This document shows positions 4,107-11,191 of a stretch of 11,439 nt of DNA, piece after piece. The notes under the pieces were generated by a model. It did no database searches. It saw nothing but the letters and a program-made list of their open reading frames with translations, and had not been told where the DNA came from. The position numbers and the translations under genes were made by a program. This DNA comes from Methanosarcinales archaeon (lineage in GTDB: Archaea; Halobacteriota; Methanosarcinia; Methanosarcinales; Methanogasteraceae): positions 1 to 11,439 of the forward strand of contig DTYY01000306.1 of the NCBI GenBank assembly GCA_012961645.1. Direction: 5' to 3'. Numbering within the stretch: the first letter of the stretch is position 1; each line of letters begins with the position of its first letter.

Positions 4107-4181
4107 AGTCCAGAGAGCATGACGTTTTTCCTAAAGACCCGGGAATCTCCTGCCAACACAAGAAAGCATGGGTACAGAACC

Positions 4182-5024
4182 ATGAGAGAAAGAAATCTAT
4201 GGATGATGCTTGCAGTAGCCTCACTTGCATTATTTGCAATTCCATGGACGATCTCAATGTTTGCAGGGCAGCACACATTCTATGATGTCTGCGACATGAA
4301 CTCGAAATGCTCAAAGTGTCATGCTGATGTCTGGGGTCAACTGGACAGCTCGCAGACCGTTCTGGCGCATAAGAATGCAGCAAACAACAAGAATTATACG
4401 ACTTACATGAGTGTTGGCGGAATCGAATACGACGGTTCGATGATATATACGATGGATTTTGCTGACGGGACGCACAATCCAGGCGATGTCGCGTATTTGT
4501 GGGACAGTGCCAGCGGTGAATGGGAAAAGGCGGTATATGACGGATCTTCGTTCATCCCAACCGGCGAGTTCGAACTGGTGAGTCTCGACATCGATACCGA
4601 TGGGTCGGTCAGCACCGATGAACTGTGCGGTTTCTGCCATGACACCCTCCTCTTCGGGTTGTCAGGCACGCACACAAGGAGAACGGTACGCGTCTGTGAT
4701 GATGACCGCTGCCACGGAAACCGGGACTGTGCATTCAACGATCCCGATTTCTTTGACGCTGATTCAAGTGCAACCATCGTCGGCTCTGACCTCAGCGGAT
4801 ACGCACACGCCGCATTCTATCTCAGTGGATCTAACGAATCATCGCCACATGCCGCCGGGCTGCCGTTTGGTCACGCTTCAGGAAACGTGAACGGCTCTTA
4901 CATCTCCAAAGGATACTGGGCATGTCTCGGCTGCCATTCGGGTGCGGGGGTGGATATAACCTTCGAGGCGGCAGATACATACGAGCACGACACAGACGAA
5001 GAGACACCAACAAGATATCGATAA
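4182..5024 (+). CDS. Four-haem c-type cytochrome with N-terminal membrane anchor
   Basis: A 280-residue exported cytochrome. A hydrophobic segment at about 6-27, after MRERN, acts as signal peptide or signal anchor. Haem-attachment motifs are CSKCH (43-47), CGFCH (149-153), CDDDRCH (172-178, a CX4CH form) and CLGCH (248-252). Residues 136-147 match a canonical EF-hand loop: D136, D138, D140, G141, V143 and E147 are in the right places, and it ends one residue before the second haem motif (C149). The tail (263-280) is strongly acidic with no second membrane helix. An upstream ATG at 4119 would add 21 non-hydrophobic residues in front of the signal and is rejected. The haems would be added outside the membrane by Ccm machinery not present here. 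Likely role: passing electrons from membrane carriers to the giant cytochrome encoded next; this is inference from order and spacing. Confidence 0.88.
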   Translation: MRERNLWMMLAVASLALFAIPWTISMFAGQHTFYDVCDMNSKCSKCHADVWGQLDSSQTVLAHKNAANNKNYTTYMSVGGIEYDGSMIYTMDFADGTHNPGDVAYLWDSASGEWEKAVYDGSSFIPTGEFELVSLDIDTDGSVSTDELCGFCHDTLLFGLSGTHTRRTVRVCDDDRCHGNRDCAFNDPDFFDADSSATIVGSDLSGYAHAAFYLSGSNESSPHAAGLPFGHASGNVNGSYISKGYWACLGCHSGAGVDITFEAADTYEHDTDEETPTRYR

Positions 5025-5025
5025 C

Positions 5026-5031
5026 AGGAGG
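5026..5031 (+). promoter_or_regulatory. Strong Shine-Dalgarno fixing a TTG start
   Basis: AGGAGG lies 6 bases before TTG 5038. The nearby ATG at 5046 is out of frame, and the next in-frame ATG (5101) would cut most of the signal peptide, so TTG is the start of the giant cytochrome. The site is immediately after the preceding gene's stop (5022-5024), which suggests independent strong loading of ribosomes within an operon. Confidence 0.75.
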
Positions 5032-5037
5032 AATTTC

Positions 5038-8000
5038 TTGATCAAATGCTCACAGATCCTGCTGCCGGCACGCATCATACCGGTCATCGCGCTGGCAGTC
5101 ATGCTGGCAGTCATGGGCGGTGATATGGGGGCGCACCCTCCTGCGATAAACCATTCCGGCGATTACACCGTGGTAATGACATACGGGCAGACTCCTTACC
5201 AGCTCGGATATCGCACAAACACCTCGACAGGGTGGGACTGGTGGGACGAGAAAGGCGCGAACCGGCAGAAGAATATCGTGCTGTTAAACGTCTTTGAGAA
5301 TGTCATCATCGATGGCAAGCCCTCACCTACGCACAAGAGCGGTCTATCGATCAGTGTCGATGTTACGTACCCGACAGATGATCTTTCAACGAACAGCACC
5401 ACCATAGCCCTTGCAGAGGATGGCAAGCATGAGTATTACTATGGCGTGTTCTATTACCCGAACGATGCATACACAGGCGTTTATGATGTCGATTTCAGAA
5501 AGACGATCGATTCAATCGATATAACACTTGATACAAACTTCACGACCACGCTCTGGGGCTGTCAGGCGAGGGGATGCCATGACGCATGGAGCCTGCAGAC
5601 AGACCCGTCAGAAAGAAACTCCACCACCGTGATACATCCGAACAAAATCGTCTCAGGATCGATGGAAAACGACTGCCAGATTATGTGCCATAGCCCTTAT
5701 GCCGCCCAGTTCTTAACAGCCACCCCGGTGCATCTGCATGAGATACAATACGGGCACGAGGGTGGTTTTATCTGCGGGGAAAGCGGATGGGTGACCATAT
5801 TTGAAGCCAACGATTCCAGGCGTGGCGAATGGGTGCTATCGATGTATGCAGAATCAGATCTGGTCAGACCGAGAGGTCAGACGCGGCTCACCGACCCGTC
5901 CCATGTCTTCATCGCAGAATGCACCGACTGCCACACCAGTTTCATCCATGATGAGGAGGGGAGCGAAACGCACGATATCGCAGCTCCGTATGTGCTCAAC
6001 GGGACTGTTGCAGTCAGCACCGGCGTCCATTCAGGCGTGGCATGCGATCTCTGCCACGGAGGTCTGGAATACCCAGAGGTCCCTAATGATCAGTATTCCC
6101 TAAGCGGCGTGCTTGGCAGCTATGCACCGACATTCACATCCTACCAGCGGTCAGAGGAGACCTACGTTCTCAATGTGAGCGGCGGCAGAGGGATCAATGT
6201 CTCGGTGACCTGCGATGACCCGGCATACAATTTCACGCTCTCCCTGATCGGACCGATCGATGATGCGGCAGGCATTCAGGACCTGAATAAGAGCGATAAC
6301 TGGCATGGCACCTACTATGTACCAAGCGTGGACGCAAGTGCATCGTTTGCCAGCGGATCACGGATATACCGCCCGAAGAACGCCACGCTTGCCAGCTATT
6401 CGGTCTTTGATGATGATGCCGGCATGCAGGAGGGAACATGGATCGCACGGATATTCGGCTGGTCTCCAGGGCTGGCAAACTACACCATCACATCCAGCAA
6501 CCAGAACCCGATCGCTTACAAGCCTATCATCCATATTCCGACGGATTGCAGCGAATGCCACAAGCCGGATCCGGATCCGCCGCTGAACCACACGAATGCA
6601 AGCGCAGACATCCCGATACCAAACTGGGACACTCGCGGGCTTGCCCACATACATGCCGACGTGAACGGAGATGGTGAGTATGACGTGGCATGTAGATCGT
6701 GCCATAACTCGCTGCACGAGATCTCGATTCTGAGTTGCACCGACTGCCACACGATGATCTCTGGCGGGCACAGAGGAATACCACCAGAACTTCTGGAAGG
6801 GTGCCAGAAATGCCACTTTGAGCCGCATTATGAGCCATGGAACGCCTCACTGGCAGAAATCATTAGAGAGACCGATCGCAGCTATGGCATCTCTGCAGGC
6901 GAGATATGCGGGTTCGTTGTACATGTCCCGAGATACACGAGATGGATCGAGTTCAACTCGACATGGTATGGCGAGGGGGTCGAACTGATCGCTGTACGAC
7001 CGAGCGCGGTCACGGAGACGGGTGTGAACATATCAGAGTATGTCGCCAGACATGTAGTATCAGAGTATGCCACCAGTCAGGGGCATGGAGGCGACTGGAA
7101 CCTCAACCTGACCGACGAGATGAGGGATTTGCGGTTCGATGGAGATATGGTTCTTCTTGACGATCAGAACACCAGCCACAAGTTCATACGTGTGGACAAC
7201 CCTGAATCGGGTGCGTGGTACGGCTACATCATAAGGCGCGCCCCGGATGACGGCTTGGGCGCTTCAGATGATACAAACGTCCTGATCTCAACCATATACG
7301 GTTACAATCCTTATCCCGGCTGCATCATCTGTCACGATTCGACGCTTCCACCGGATCCTGAGAATCGGACTACAGAATCCAACTTTGTTGTCTCAGCATT
7401 CGAAAAAGGCATTCATGCGAGGGTAAACGGCGCAGAGGATGACATCAATCGATCGTGCTGGGCATGTCATTGGGATGGTACCGTATCGTCAGAACACCGC
7501 AAAAAGAAGATGAATTGCAGCAACAACGACTGTCACACCTTCGATCAATCAAAATACAGAGAACCGATGATTTACGAGCATTTCAAGGACGCTGACATCC
7601 TCGATAATCCGGGAAACCTCACCACAAGCAACATCAGCACCACGGTCGGGTGCGATGCGTGTCATCTAAACAGCATCGTAGAGACTACAGACCCGGTCAC
7701 GAGCGGCACCTACAGGGTATCCCATTACGGCTCAACCGATGAACTGATGGCATATCCTGACAGTATCCTGACTGATTGCGTCTACTGCCACGAGGATATG
7801 GATAATGCGGAGGAATGGGGTGATGCGATCGATCCTACAGACTTAAAATCAGATTTGATCTGCGAAGATGAGAAAGCAACCATGCTTGCAGGAGATCTCT
7901 GGGAACTCAGAAACGGATACATATTAAAGGTCGTGAATGTCGATCTGAGCGGGAATAGCACGCTTGTGCAGCTCATCAGGGAAGGGGAGGTCATCGATGA

Positions 8001-9552
8001 GCATGTGATACGTGGTGATAAACCGTTTCTGTACGAGGAGGAGATCACGGATGATAACAGCACTTTTGACCAGACCATCGTTTCGGTGAACCTGACCGGC
8101 GTCATGAGAGGTGGAGAAGGTGGAGTTGCGACGCTGGAGGGCAGAACGATCAGACGAATCCACCCTGAGACCGAGAATAGGGCGTGCTATGCCTGCCACA
8201 TGGAAGGATACGCAAGAAACGACAGATACACCATCGTTGACCGGAAAGGAAACGTGACCTATTATACAAAGCTGCTTATTGATTTCGATGATGCGGGTGA
8301 GAGTTCAAAGACGCTTGGGTCTGGAGAGGACTGGGATCTTGGAGAAGGGTTCGTTCTCACGGTAAAACATGTCGATATCAACGGAGATCTTGCCATGCTC
8401 GAACTTCGAGAGAATGGTGTCGTGGTTGAGGACGATGTGGTGAATACGAGCGATCTATTCGAATACGAGAAGGATATCTCCCCGCTGACCGATGTACCCA
8501 TATTCAGAGCGAACATCTCAGGTGTATTCAGGTCTCGTGGCGCCGATCTGGCCGTGCTCGATGGTGTGCGGCTGATATCGCCTGACATATCTGACGCGGA
8601 CAAAAGCGACATCGATGACGAAGATAAGCTCAGAGTGGACGGCTACAACGTGAGCTGGATTTCTGTCGGAGAGAATTTCGGAGGAGCTGAGCCTGATACG
8701 TTCCATGTGCCGCCGCTTGTAAATGGCTGGGATATCGTCTTTGCCAACTGCATCCAGTGCCATGACCTTGGCACCGGTATGGATATCAAGCGTGTCGATG
8801 CAATCGATTCGCAGCTCGGGGCACATGCCGAACTAAACGCAGATGCATCCGCATCAGACGACGCACTGAAAACCGATCCGATCGTGAGAGCGTGCTGGGC
8901 ATGTCACGGAATCGGTCTGGAACCCGGCGTCCACCCTGACAAGACACCGAAAGACTGCGTGGACTGCCATGTGCACGAAATACTCTTTGATGCGGTTGAC
9001 ATCTCTGGTGTACCACATGGTAAGGTCAGGAATTGCACGAGTTGTCACGGAAAGTCGGGATATGATCCGCATGTGATCACCGCGTTTGGTGCGGTGCCAC
9101 ACATAGGCAATATCAAGCTGTCGCCGCAGTCGTGCTACGAAGGAGAGACTGTTGTGATCGATGCTGTTGCAGTCTCCGGCTGGATGCTTGAGGTGACTGG
9201 AGCTGAGTATTTCATCGACTTCACCGGATCGGATGGTACAGGAACTCCGATGATGCCGGTTGACGGCGCATTCGACAGCAACACCGAGGAGATCACCGCA
9301 AAGATCGACACCACTGGACTCCTCGCAGGCAATCACACGATCATCGTCCATGCCATGGAATCAGAGGATACATGGGGCAGGACGGCATCAGCCACGCTGC
9401 ACATCAAGACTGGCAGAAAACCGCTTCTGGTAGAGCTGGGTTCATTCGTGTCATCCATACCCGCATACTGGTACGCAGTTGTTCTGATAGGAATCCTGAT
9501 ACTATACGGGTTCATAAGATTCGCCGGATTGCGATCACGTAAGCAATCATGA
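5038..9552 (+). CDS. Giant 18-haem cytochrome with S-layer-like segments and C-terminal membrane anchor
   Basis: A 1504-residue extracellular cytochrome. The signal peptide covers about 8-32. Haem motifs begin at Cys 175 (CQARGCH), 213 (CQIMCH), 295, 336, 504, 552, 567, 589, 762, 807, 827 (CSNNDCH), 872, 914, 1050, 1238, 1286, 1307 and 1333: fifteen CxxCH, one CX3CH and two CX4CH. Between them lie beta-rich, haem-free regions at about 40-170, 341-503 and 594-761. Two segments (about 942-1042 and 1076-1181) share the W-x-L-x-x-G-[YF]-x-L-x-V-x-x-V-D core and the V-F-R-x-x-x-A end of the archaeal S-layer duplication domain (PF07752). An Ig-like region (about 1352-1458) precedes a membrane helix (1476-1493) and a short basic tail. 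Many N-x-S/T sites fit an exported glycoprotein. Such S-layer/multihaem fusions in ANME-2 archaea are thought to carry electrons across the S-layer. Redox partners are unknown. Confidence 0.9.
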   Translation: MIKCSQILLPARIIPVIALAVMLAVMGGDMGAHPPAINHSGDYTVVMTYGQTPYQLGYRTNTSTGWDWWDEKGANRQKNIVLLNVFENVIIDGKPSPTHKSGLSISVDVTYPTDDLSTNSTTIALAEDGKHEYYYGVFYYPNDAYTGVYDVDFRKTIDSIDITLDTNFTTTLWGCQARGCHDAWSLQTDPSERNSTTVIHPNKIVSGSMENDCQIMCHSPYAAQFLTATPVHLHEIQYGHEGGFICGESGWVTIFEANDSRRGEWVLSMYAESDLVRPRGQTRLTDPSHVFIAECTDCHTSFIHDEEGSETHDIAAPYVLNGTVAVSTGVHSGVACDLCHGGLEYPEVPNDQYSLSGVLGSYAPTFTSYQRSEETYVLNVSGGRGINVSVTCDDPAYNFTLSLIGPIDDAAGIQDLNKSDNWHGTYYVPSVDASASFASGSRIYRPKNATLASYSVFDDDAGMQEGTWIARIFGWSPGLANYTITSSNQNPIAYKPIIHIPTDCSECHKPDPDPPLNHTNASADIPIPNWDTRGLAHIHADVNGDGEYDVACRSCHNSLHEISILSCTDCHTMISGGHRGIPPELLEGCQKCHFEPHYEPWNASLAEIIRETDRSYGISAGEICGFVVHVPRYTRWIEFNSTWYGEGVELIAVRPSAVTETGVNISEYVARHVVSEYATSQGHGGDWNLNLTDEMRDLRFDGDMVLLDDQNTSHKFIRVDNPESGAWYGYIIRRAPDDGLGASDDTNVLISTIYGYNPYPGCIICHDSTLPPDPENRTTESNFVVSAFEKGIHARVNGAEDDINRSCWACHWDGTVSSEHRKKKMNCSNNDCHTFDQSKYREPMIYEHFKDADILDNPGNLTTSNISTTVGCDACHLNSIVETTDPVTSGTYRVSHYGSTDELMAYPDSILTDCVYCHEDMDNAEEWGDAIDPTDLKSDLICEDEKATMLAGDLWELRNGYILKVVNVDLSGNSTLVQLIREGEVIDEHVIRGDKPFLYEEEITDDNSTFDQTIVSVNLTGVMRGGEGGVATLEGRTIRRIHPETENRACYACHMEGYARNDRYTIVDRKGNVTYYTKLLIDFDDAGESSKTLGSGEDWDLGEGFVLTVKHVDINGDLAMLELRENGVVVEDDVVNTSDLFEYEKDISPLTDVPIFRANISGVFRSRGADLAVLDGVRLISPDISDADKSDIDDEDKLRVDGYNVSWISVGENFGGAEPDTFHVPPLVNGWDIVFANCIQCHDLGTGMDIKRVDAIDSQLGAHAELNADASASDDALKTDPIVRACWACHGIGLEPGVHPDKTPKDCVDCHVHEILFDAVDISGVPHGKVRNCTSCHGKSGYDPHVITAFGAVPHIGNIKLSPQSCYEGETVVIDAVAVSGWMLEVTGAEYFIDFTGSDGTGTPMMPVDGAFDSNTEEITAKIDTTGLLAGNHTIIVHAMESEDTWGRTASATLHIKTGRKPLLVELGSFVSSIPAYWYAVVLIGILILYGFIRFAGLRSRKQS
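7321..7536 (+). repeat. Three-haem module A (haems 9-11), internal duplication in the giant cytochrome
   Basis: The segment runs CIICHDS, then GIHARVN, RSCWACH, a His/Lys stretch and CSNNDCH. Module B at 8749-8970 has the same order: CIQCHDL, GAHAELN, RACWACH, a His/Lys stretch and CVDCH. Cys spacings are 45 and 20 residues here and 48 and 21 there. The pattern indicates an old internal duplication at protein level; the DNA has diverged. Confidence 0.65.
7861..8163 (+). repeat. S-layer-like segment 1 within the giant cytochrome
   Basis: Residues about 942-1042. The core LWELRNGYILKVVNVDLSGN aligns with DWDLGEGFVLTVKHVDINGD in segment 2, and both have a later [VL]-x-[GS]-V-[MF]-R element and a hydrophobic closing strand. 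This resembles part of the Methanosarcina S-layer duplication domain PF07752/DUF1608, but at about 100 residues it is shorter than the full domain. Recognition is by eye, without a profile score. Confidence 0.6.
8263..8580 (+). repeat. S-layer-like segment 2 within the giant cytochrome
   Basis: Residues about 1076-1181, the better match of the two: DWDLGEGFVLTVKHVDINGD, then LELRENGVVVEDDVV, a YEKDI stretch, and the ANISGVFRSRGADLAVLDGV ending seen in archaeal S-layer domains. Haem motif 14 (Cys 1050) lies between segments 1 and 2, and haem 15 (Cys 1238) follows after an acidic linker. Confidence 0.7.
8749..8970 (+). repeat. Three-haem module B (haems 15-17), internal duplication
   Basis: Second copy of the module described at 7321-7536. 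CWACH is identical in both copies, and the following motif is CX4CH in module A but CxxCH in module B, so the copies have diverged in haem-binding spacing. Haem 18 (CTSCH) follows 26 residues after the start of haem 17. Confidence 0.65.
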
Positions 9553-11191
9553 TCGCCGCCACCAGCCACGCACCCTCAAGCCCGGGCATCACCATGGTCT
9601 TTAATGATTCGATGTTCTGCTGAACCTCTCTTGCTTTCACATTGATCCGTCTCCGGACTGTTTCATCTTCAGCCCTGGCAGAGTCGGGTTTTGGGATTTC
9701 TGCGGCGCCGTTCGTGCCTGCTACTTGGGTGGGTGTTGCAGCTTCAGCAATCGCTGGAACCTTCTTAATCGACGTAATCAACGTAACCGGCATCTTAACC
9801 TCGTAATTTCCGGTGTAGTTCATGGTCCTTCCGGCATAGACCGTTTCTTTGAATTCAACCGAAGGTTCAGGGATATTCACATCGAGCGAGTCGATTCTTA
9901 TGACATAACTGACGCTTTCAGTCTCCTGCGATCTCATGAAAATGAAACCGGTAAAATTCGTTCTACCACTGACATAGGTTGTGTTTGCAGGCATCCGATC
10001 GATCAGACTGATGTATGCGGGCAGGTCGCCTGTATTTGTGGCGTTGATCGTGATATTGATGGTCTCGCCGATCTCTGCATGATCAGGCTCAACCGTCTTT
10101 ACGAGATCGATGAATGCGCCATGCACCACAGTCCTGGGGCGGTCGCTTTTAGCACCATGATCCATGTCCTGCAGACGCCACGATGCGCTGGCGGCAGGAA
10201 GTGTGAAACTGCCGGGTCTATCCGGAATCAGGTGATAATAAAAGGTCTTTTCTTCGCCGGGTCTCACATAAAATGTCCAGTTCAAATTTACGTCGTTTTT
10301 CACCCTGAAATGATCAGAAACCTCATCAGTCAGCGTGACCTGCCCGACCTCGTAGTTCTGGACGTTCTTTGCGCTGATGCCCACGTACACAGTATCGCCC
10401 CAGTAGATGTCAGGAGTCACAAACTTTCGCAGAGAAAGCGGCGATTTCAGCCCGGCCACTTTTGAGCCCTCCTTGCGATACTCGATACCATCCTCATCCC
10501 TGCCGGTCATCAGGACGTGTATATTCCCCTCCACCGACATCTCAGAGAACATGAGTTCGACCGTGACCGATCTCGACTCATCAGGACTGATCGTACCGAT
10601 GCGTCGGATCAAACCGCCGTCTGCCAGATACAATCCCTCGAGGCTGATATTCAGCAGCACATCACGCAGATCTCCGTCTCCATCGTTCTCGACTGTGATC
10701 TCTGCTGTTACGGTATCTCCGTAGAGATATTCACTCTCATCGGTCGAAATACCAAGTTTTATCTCAGGCGTCTTCTTCTCTGCCACCCATGAGGCGATCT
10801 TTGCCTCAGGATACCAGGGCCATCTGCCTATGGACTCCAGATCGTCCTTATCGGTTGCATCCTCGCATTTTAGCCTGATCTCATCGTTGTCCCAGACATG
10901 ACCCTTTGTAAGAACGATCCTCTCGACCAACTCGCCTGTTTCTTCCTCTGTATTCAGCCTGATCTCGAGTGCAACCGACCCCTCCCCATTGAAATCGGTA
11001 GCCTCGACTGTGAATACGCCGACCGAGAACGCGGGCTCATCCTTGTCAAGGGTGTGGGTCTCCTTGCTCGTCCATTCCACATCATCGCATGAAGCGATCG
11101 GTGCGGCGAGCAGGATCAAGCCAATGAATGCAAGAGCCGCAAGGGTCCGTTGTCCGTTCATCATTCGATTACCATCTGGTTTTATCCGCAT
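9512..11191 (-). CDS. Secreted, membrane-anchored envelope protein with Ig-like/DUF11 domains
   Basis: A 559-residue protein with a signal peptide at about 13-33, ending in PIASC. This resembles a lipobox, so lipid attachment at C35 is possible. Residues 36-140 form an acidic beta-rich domain loosely like the S-layer region of the neighbouring cytochrome. Three Ig-like domains follow at about 143-237, 250-345 and 355-465. The third is a clear DUF11 type (IDLVKTVEPDHAEIGETINI, then NTGDLPAYISLIDRMP). A low-complexity linker (475-515) and a charged helical stretch (512-533) lead to a membrane helix at about 539-555 with an RRIL tail. AGGAAG 5 bases upstream supports the ATG at 11191; MM at residues 10-11 is an alternative start. 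There are no haem motifs. Its convergent 41-bp overlap with the giant cytochrome suggests a linked role in the cell envelope, but function is unknown. Confidence 0.85.
   Translation of the reverse strand: MRIKPDGNRMMNGQRTLAALAFIGLILLAAPIASCDDVEWTSKETHTLDKDEPAFSVGVFTVEATDFNGEGSVALEIRLNTEEETGELVERIVLTKGHVWDNDEIRLKCEDATDKDDLESIGRWPWYPEAKIASWVAEKKTPEIKLGISTDESEYLYGDTVTAEITVENDGDGDLRDVLLNISLEGLYLADGGLIRRIGTISPDESRSVTVELMFSEMSVEGNIHVLMTGRDEDGIEYRKEGSKVAGLKSPLSLRKFVTPDIYWGDTVYVGISAKNVQNYEVGQVTLTDEVSDHFRVKNDVNLNWTFYVRPGEEKTFYYHLIPDRPGSFTLPAASASWRLQDMDHGAKSDRPRTVVHGAFIDLVKTVEPDHAEIGETINITINATNTGDLPAYISLIDRMPANTTYVSGRTNFTGFIFMRSQETESVSYVIRIDSLDVNIPEPSVEFKETVYAGRTMNYTGNYEVKMPVTLITSIKKVPAIAEAATPTQVAGTNGAAEIPKPDSARAEDETVRRRINVKAREVQQNIESLKTMVMPGLEGAWLVAAIMIAYVIAIRRIL

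Follow-up and report, generated by a model that had tools for sequence, protein, structure and literature searches.

The way in which methane-oxidising archaea move electrons across their protein coat matters for the ocean methane sink. The stretch of DNA analysed here (the window; 11,439 nucleotides, one whole contig, C306, of a 1.66 Mb source assembly in 362 contigs that is 82% complete) comes from an organism that we take to be ANME-2c, as its relatives point that way. It holds a gene for a large multihaem cytochrome with two S-layer-like segments and a haem placed between them.

The 18-haem protein and its neighbours

The cytochrome gene, its parts and the two genes beside it are laid out in the window as follows.

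4119..5024, + strand: 4-haem protein with an N-terminal hydrophobic stretch (judged by eye), 13 nt upstream of the cytochrome gene
5026..5031, + strand: ribosome-binding-site-like AGGAGG ahead of a TTG start (read from the sequence)
5038..9552, + strand: 18-haem S-layer cytochrome, 1504 aa (open reading frame, motifs, Pfam matches, orthologues)
5038..5130, + strand: signal-peptide-like N-terminus, end approximate (hydropathy maximum at aa 7-23)
5350..6849, + strand: N-terminal module, aa 105-604, haems 1-8, closest to MHC-B-like proteins (sequence comparison, tree)
7876..8169, + strand: S-layer segment 1, aa 947-1044, putative copy 1 of the DUF1608 middle sub-domain (Pfam and profile comparison)
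8185..8199, + strand: haem 14 motif CYACH, aa 1050-1054, between the S-layer segments (motif scan)
8308..8586, + strand: S-layer segment 2, aa 1091-1183, putative copy 2 of the DUF1608 middle sub-domain (Pfam and profile comparison)
8749..9048, + strand: haems 15-18, motifs at aa 1238, 1286, 1307 and 1333 (motif scan)
9463..9528, + strand: C-terminal transmembrane-helix-like stretch, approximate (hydropathy maximum in the last 60 aa)
9512..11191, - strand: surface-type protein (DUF11, BatD and CARDB-like matches) whose gene is convergent with that of the cytochrome and overlaps its 3' end

What the initial annotation had seen in the sequence of this gene holds. The 18 C-x(2-4)-C-H motifs are present, as 15 CxxCH, one CxxxCH (aa 213) and two CxxxxCH (aa 175 and 827); 2000 shuffles of the same residues averaged 0.15 motifs and never gave more than 3. 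The motif positions also place 13 haems before segment 1, haem 14 (aa 1050) between the segments and four haems after segment 2, as had been claimed, and the proposed signal peptide and C-terminal membrane helix appear as hydrophobic stretches at both ends, judged by hydropathy alone. The two PF07752-like segments, previously put at residues 942-1042 and 1076-1181, agree with the Pfam search, in which PF07752 matches the protein in two stretches (127.2 bits, E 7.9e-37, cut-off 30). TIGR01567, the S-layer family duplication domain of NCBIfam, matches with 97.2 bits, under its curated cut-off of 121.9. Two cytochrome families, PF14522 and PF22113, match above their cut-offs, and the latter is MtrC/MtrF-like, with its best stretch at 760-921.

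Orthologues of the 18-haem protein occur in all nine genomes of genera g1, g2 and g4. All 18 motifs, in the order 13-1-4, are kept in seven of the seven proteins that cover the motif region (those of the window, L039-L043 and L045; the L043 protein is without its first ~166 aa), and two further orthologues are cut by contig ends and show 11 (L044) and 14 (L015) motifs. When gaps are ignored, 45 histidines are invariant among the seven, of which 18 are motif histidines, so that 27 are left as possible distal ligands; judging from the alignment, the invariant histidines would be enough for 18 proximal and 18 distal putative ligands. In genus g3 of family f1, an orthologue was found in none of eight genomes (G006, G008, G010 and G012-G016; 56-94% complete, nine candidates scored per genome). 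A survey of 246 genomes of the phylum, a draw with few members of the families studied here, gave a match to the A2 alignment at E 1e-15 in eight genomes, across both halves in three (the source genome, G017 and G020) and to a single half in five.

The 4-haem gene and the convergent surface-protein gene are kept in all five loci that have flanks (the window, L039, L040, L042 and L045). The overlap between the 3' ends of the cytochrome and surface-protein genes is about 35-47 bases in each of the five, and spans 9512-9552 in the window. Beyond this cassette, the window encodes the end of a Hef-associated-nuclease-like ORF, PhoU, a glycosyltransferase, a fumarase-beta-like subunit and an EMC3/TMCO1-like membrane protein. 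None of these is tied to the finding, and a search of the other four loci at E 1e-8 gave no counterpart of the outer window ORFs.

The linker haem

The suggestion that a haem between two S-layer pieces may be a variant not yet described does not stand. Chadwick et al. 2022 (PMC9012536), in the part that treats these proteins, state that every ANME cytochrome with an S-layer domain has one linker haem motif, place that haem in the S-layer plane, divide the large cytochromes of ANME into three types (A, B and C), and propose the S-layer cytochromes as conduits analogous to MtrCAB. Our literature search found no further paper naming both MHC-A and MHC-B with ANME. In our own survey, exactly one haem motif lies between the S-layer halves in 42 of 42 S-layer cytochrome ORFs, and we rejected the linker haem as a novelty on these two grounds. 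The survey took ORFs with at least three haem motifs and S-layer half-domain matches on both sides, from loci picked by similarity rather than at random, and the 42 ORFs are 41 distinct ones, with L010 and L043 being the same contig. The linker haem sits five residues past the end of segment 1 in 36 of the 42; in L057, L058, L071 and L073 the first half has no recognised end, which makes the counted gap longer.

What the S-layer segments are

The PF07752 model is 259 positions long, and the strongest matches of S-layer proteins span about 6-259. The two stretches of the 18-haem protein, each above the cut-off, cover only model positions 94-201 (DNA positions 7822-8142) and 102-226 (8266-8646) of the complete DUF1608/PF07752 repeat, and among the matches listed, 19 in S-layer cytochrome ORFs fall within positions 93-220. 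The same picture comes from the crystal chain of MA0829 (3u2g), in which segment 1 aligns with residues 104-202 and segment 2 with residues 98-219. Profiles built from the two halves (36 sequences for half 1, 32 for half 2) were compared with 31 repeats of haem-free S-layer-type proteins, and they matched the middle part of these repeats with probabilities of 99.4 and 99.7, versus 0.1 to 2.2 for the parts before or after the middle. In L003, the half-1 and half-2 models each match once per full repeat.

By sequence, then, both segments appear to be copies of one middle sub-domain of DUF1608, which differs from the published wording. Since both match only this middle part, no complete lattice unit is recognisable at this level, and the earlier claim that the haem lies within the lattice layer itself is not borne out; as the same sub-domain seems to occur twice, to put a haem in the plane of the lattice is an inference rather than a reading of the domains. 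The same sub-domain is also found in haem-free proteins (L108, L109 and L110), where it is strung as four to six beads, and in L108 and L109 these strings adjoin complete DUF1608 repeats.

MHC-A and MHC-B affinities

As far as testable, the 18-haem protein fits ANME MHC-A, with an MHC-B-like head. It shares with MHC-A, as that type is characterised in the relevant part of PMC9012536, the S-layer domain, the single haem between two pieces and the C-terminal helix; as in MHC-A and unlike MHC-B, it gave no match to an M6-like N-terminal domain (Pfam searched to E 1, NCBIfam to 0.1). It differs from MHC-A in its haem number, as 18 is above the cut of >10 haem motifs in the methods of PMC9012536 and just under the "20 and 80" mentioned in that text, and also in its N-terminal half (aa 105-604), which is closest to MHC-B-like proteins. 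This module is homologous to, and 44-54% identical with, the MHC-B-like proteins found here, and had only weaker matches elsewhere in our sequence set. From MHC-B, the protein differs in having 4 haems after the S-layer part, not 17. In two MHC-B-like proteins that were scanned, a match to MAM/choice-anchor-J, below curated cut-offs, lies close to the N-terminus, where the 18-haem protein has no match and a gap; we infer that this region is the M6-like region of PMC9012536, as far as it is described there. The same source, where it deals with gene neighbours, reports that a CcmF2 gene adjoins MHC-B. No CcmF_C match was found within the window. The source genome, at 82% completeness, has a single one, which lies on contig C90 some 1 kb away from a 17-haem ORF, so the MHC-B neighbour gene of Chadwick et al. 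is absent from this locus.

The tree of the S-layer region (39 rows, with a program warning of long branches meeting at the main joins) puts the window group on the A-like side, apart from the MHC-B-like proteins by a 100/100 branch; the A-like proteins have 4 haems after the segments, except for five with 16 or 19. L069 falls inside the window group, which for this reason does not form a single clade in this tree. The tree of the N-terminal module joins the window group with an ANME-2c MHC-B-like gene (84/99), but an AU test (L088 and the duplicate L010 omitted) did not reject a tree in which all 16 MHC-B-like rows form a clade that excludes the window group (p 0.325). We therefore dropped a recent origin of the module from an ANME-2c MHC-B-like gene, and limit the claim to "closest to MHC-B-like proteins". 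On these comparisons, the protein would be a mosaic, with an N-terminal half nearest MHC-B-like proteins and an S-layer half on the MHC-A-like side.

Related cytochromes

In ANME-2c (family f1) and in family f5, the MHC-B-like cytochrome is found as two ORFs, split within the second S-layer sub-domain (L057, L058, L066, L067, L070, L071, L073 and L075 in f1; L113, L114 and L115 in f5), and the first ORF stops at half-model position 79-80 in 11 of 11. Each of the 12 second ORFs examined in f1 (14-17 haems) starts with a signal-like N-terminus of its own, followed by sequence resembling the missing last strand, and three second ORFs in f5 (16 haems) are similar to them by eye, so the strand may be supplied in trans. 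One of four f5 loci examined (L117) is unsplit, and MHC-B-like proteins are single-chain in eight of eight cases in families f2/f3. In the source genome, the first ORF of the split cytochrome is followed by a cytochrome gene on the opposite strand (L075, C226), and the second ORF lies on a separate contig, near CcmF (L076, C90); these may be separate genes, or the contigs may be misassembled.

Two other proteins have the same S-layer pair and 4-haem tail as the 18-haem protein. In L069 (3628-7473, - strand), an octahaem tetrathionate-reductase-family head is joined to them in a 1282-aa frame with 18 haems, and this head matches TIGR04315 with E 5e-63, under the model cut-off. In L060 (2-15589, + strand), a frame of 5196 aa that is open at its 5' side has 120 haem motifs in the part covered.

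A proposed electron conduit and its alternatives

The reading that we favour, with a probability of roughly two in three, is that the 18-haem protein serves ANME-2c as an extracellular electron conduit, of the kind published as ANME MHC-A. The initial annotation had likewise set it beside the multihaem/S-layer fusions of ANME-2 archaea, which are proposed as electron conduits, and this role is supported as the most likely one; the protein is mostly ordinary for its kind, one more conduit of a published type. After export, it would receive its haems outside the membrane and stay anchored through its C-terminal helix. Electrons would come from the membrane side, perhaps via the 4-haem neighbour, to the four C-terminal haems; from there, their route would lead past haem 14, between the S-layer sub-domains, and on through the remaining 13 haems to an N-terminal head that faces outward, with the two sub-domain copies docking or bracing the haem chain in the protein coat. 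Given that both copies represent the same DUF1608 sub-domain, the protein probably sits in the S-layer as a guest and not as a lattice tile.

The sequence evidence in favour of the conduit consists of the 18 motifs and their constant order in the orthologues, the two PF07752 stretches, the invariant histidines, the linker haem and the kept 4-haem and surface-protein genes, to which the published model for the class is added. Evidence from elsewhere bears on the conduit in both directions. In its favour, the part of PMC10874420 on electrodes reports that the gene of a Methanoperedens 23-haem S-layer cytochrome is differentially expressed there. Against it, the same paper, where it treats electron transfer to iron minerals and syntrophy with sulfate reducers, has no such cytochromes expressed, and PMC9012536, in its statements on transcription, describes the large cytochromes as less transcribed in ANME-2c cultures. 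We also count against it the contrast between the eight genomes of genus g3, all of them negative for an orthologue, and the nine positive genomes of the other three genera.

A surface reductase on a stalk would account for the same protein differently: the sub-domain copies would be spacer beads, and the haems would be there for a terminal reductase or for a connection with other extracellular cytochromes, so that the S-layer is not bridged. The haem-free bead strings suit such a stalk, as does the lack of the rest of the DUF1608 repeat in the cytochrome copies, but the C-terminal anchor, the haems placed before as well as after the segments, and the linker haem in every surveyed ORF fit a continuous wire better, and we consider the stalk unlikely, with about the weight of a minority view. 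Still less probable is a true lattice tile, in which the two segments act as both sub-domains of one DUF1608 repeat and haem 14 sits in the lattice plane. This is the wording of PMC9012536, in the part concerned, and of the initial annotation, and 3u2g is the top Foldseek match of both our fold models (E 5.7e-9 and 5.9e-6), over 267 and 188 columns, which is more than one sub-domain. Those models are of low confidence, with mean pLDDT of 40.4 and 49.8, and the alignments have an rmsd of 14-17 Å, and we read no arrangement from them; moreover, both segments match the same region of 3u2g and the same part of the Pfam model, and the profile comparison finds the middle sub-domain and next to nothing outside it. 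An assembly or translation artefact, which a fragmented assembly of several hundred contigs might suggest, has a negligible chance of being true, and we regard it as refuted, since the 18 motifs recur in the same order in orthologues from other assemblies.

Alongside the conduit, we tentatively put forward, at somewhat below even odds, that the "S-layer domain" of these cytochromes is a pair of one DUF1608 sub-domain clamped around a single haem, and that this pair is a module of its own, not a lattice unit, joined to varied multihaem heads: MHC-B-like in the window protein, octahaem tetrathionate-reductase-like in L069 and very long haem chains in L060. If this is true, the published view, in which a haem lies in the plane of the lattice, would need revision, and the cytochromes would be guests docked to the S-layer. 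What is new here is the reading of the segments as two copies of one sub-domain, the mosaic make-up and the three-gene cassette. The locus thus adds a correction to the domain reading that is open to testing, and the small conserved cassette of 4-haem neighbour, 18-haem conduit and surface protein could be expressed and studied.

Comparison with known systems

MtrCAB-type bacterial conduits include a porin. The 18-haem protein resembles these conduits as a multihaem wire across an outer layer, by the analogy drawn in the corresponding part of PMC9012536, and through its PF22113 match; it differs in that no porin partner was seen in the window and that the outer layer here is protein. Methanosarcina MA0829, the DUF1608/PF07752 protein of structure 3u2g, is alike in that both segments are homologous to its chain residues from about 98 to 219, and unlike in that just the middle sub-domain is recognisable in the 18-haem protein, where it occurs twice, with a haem between the copies.
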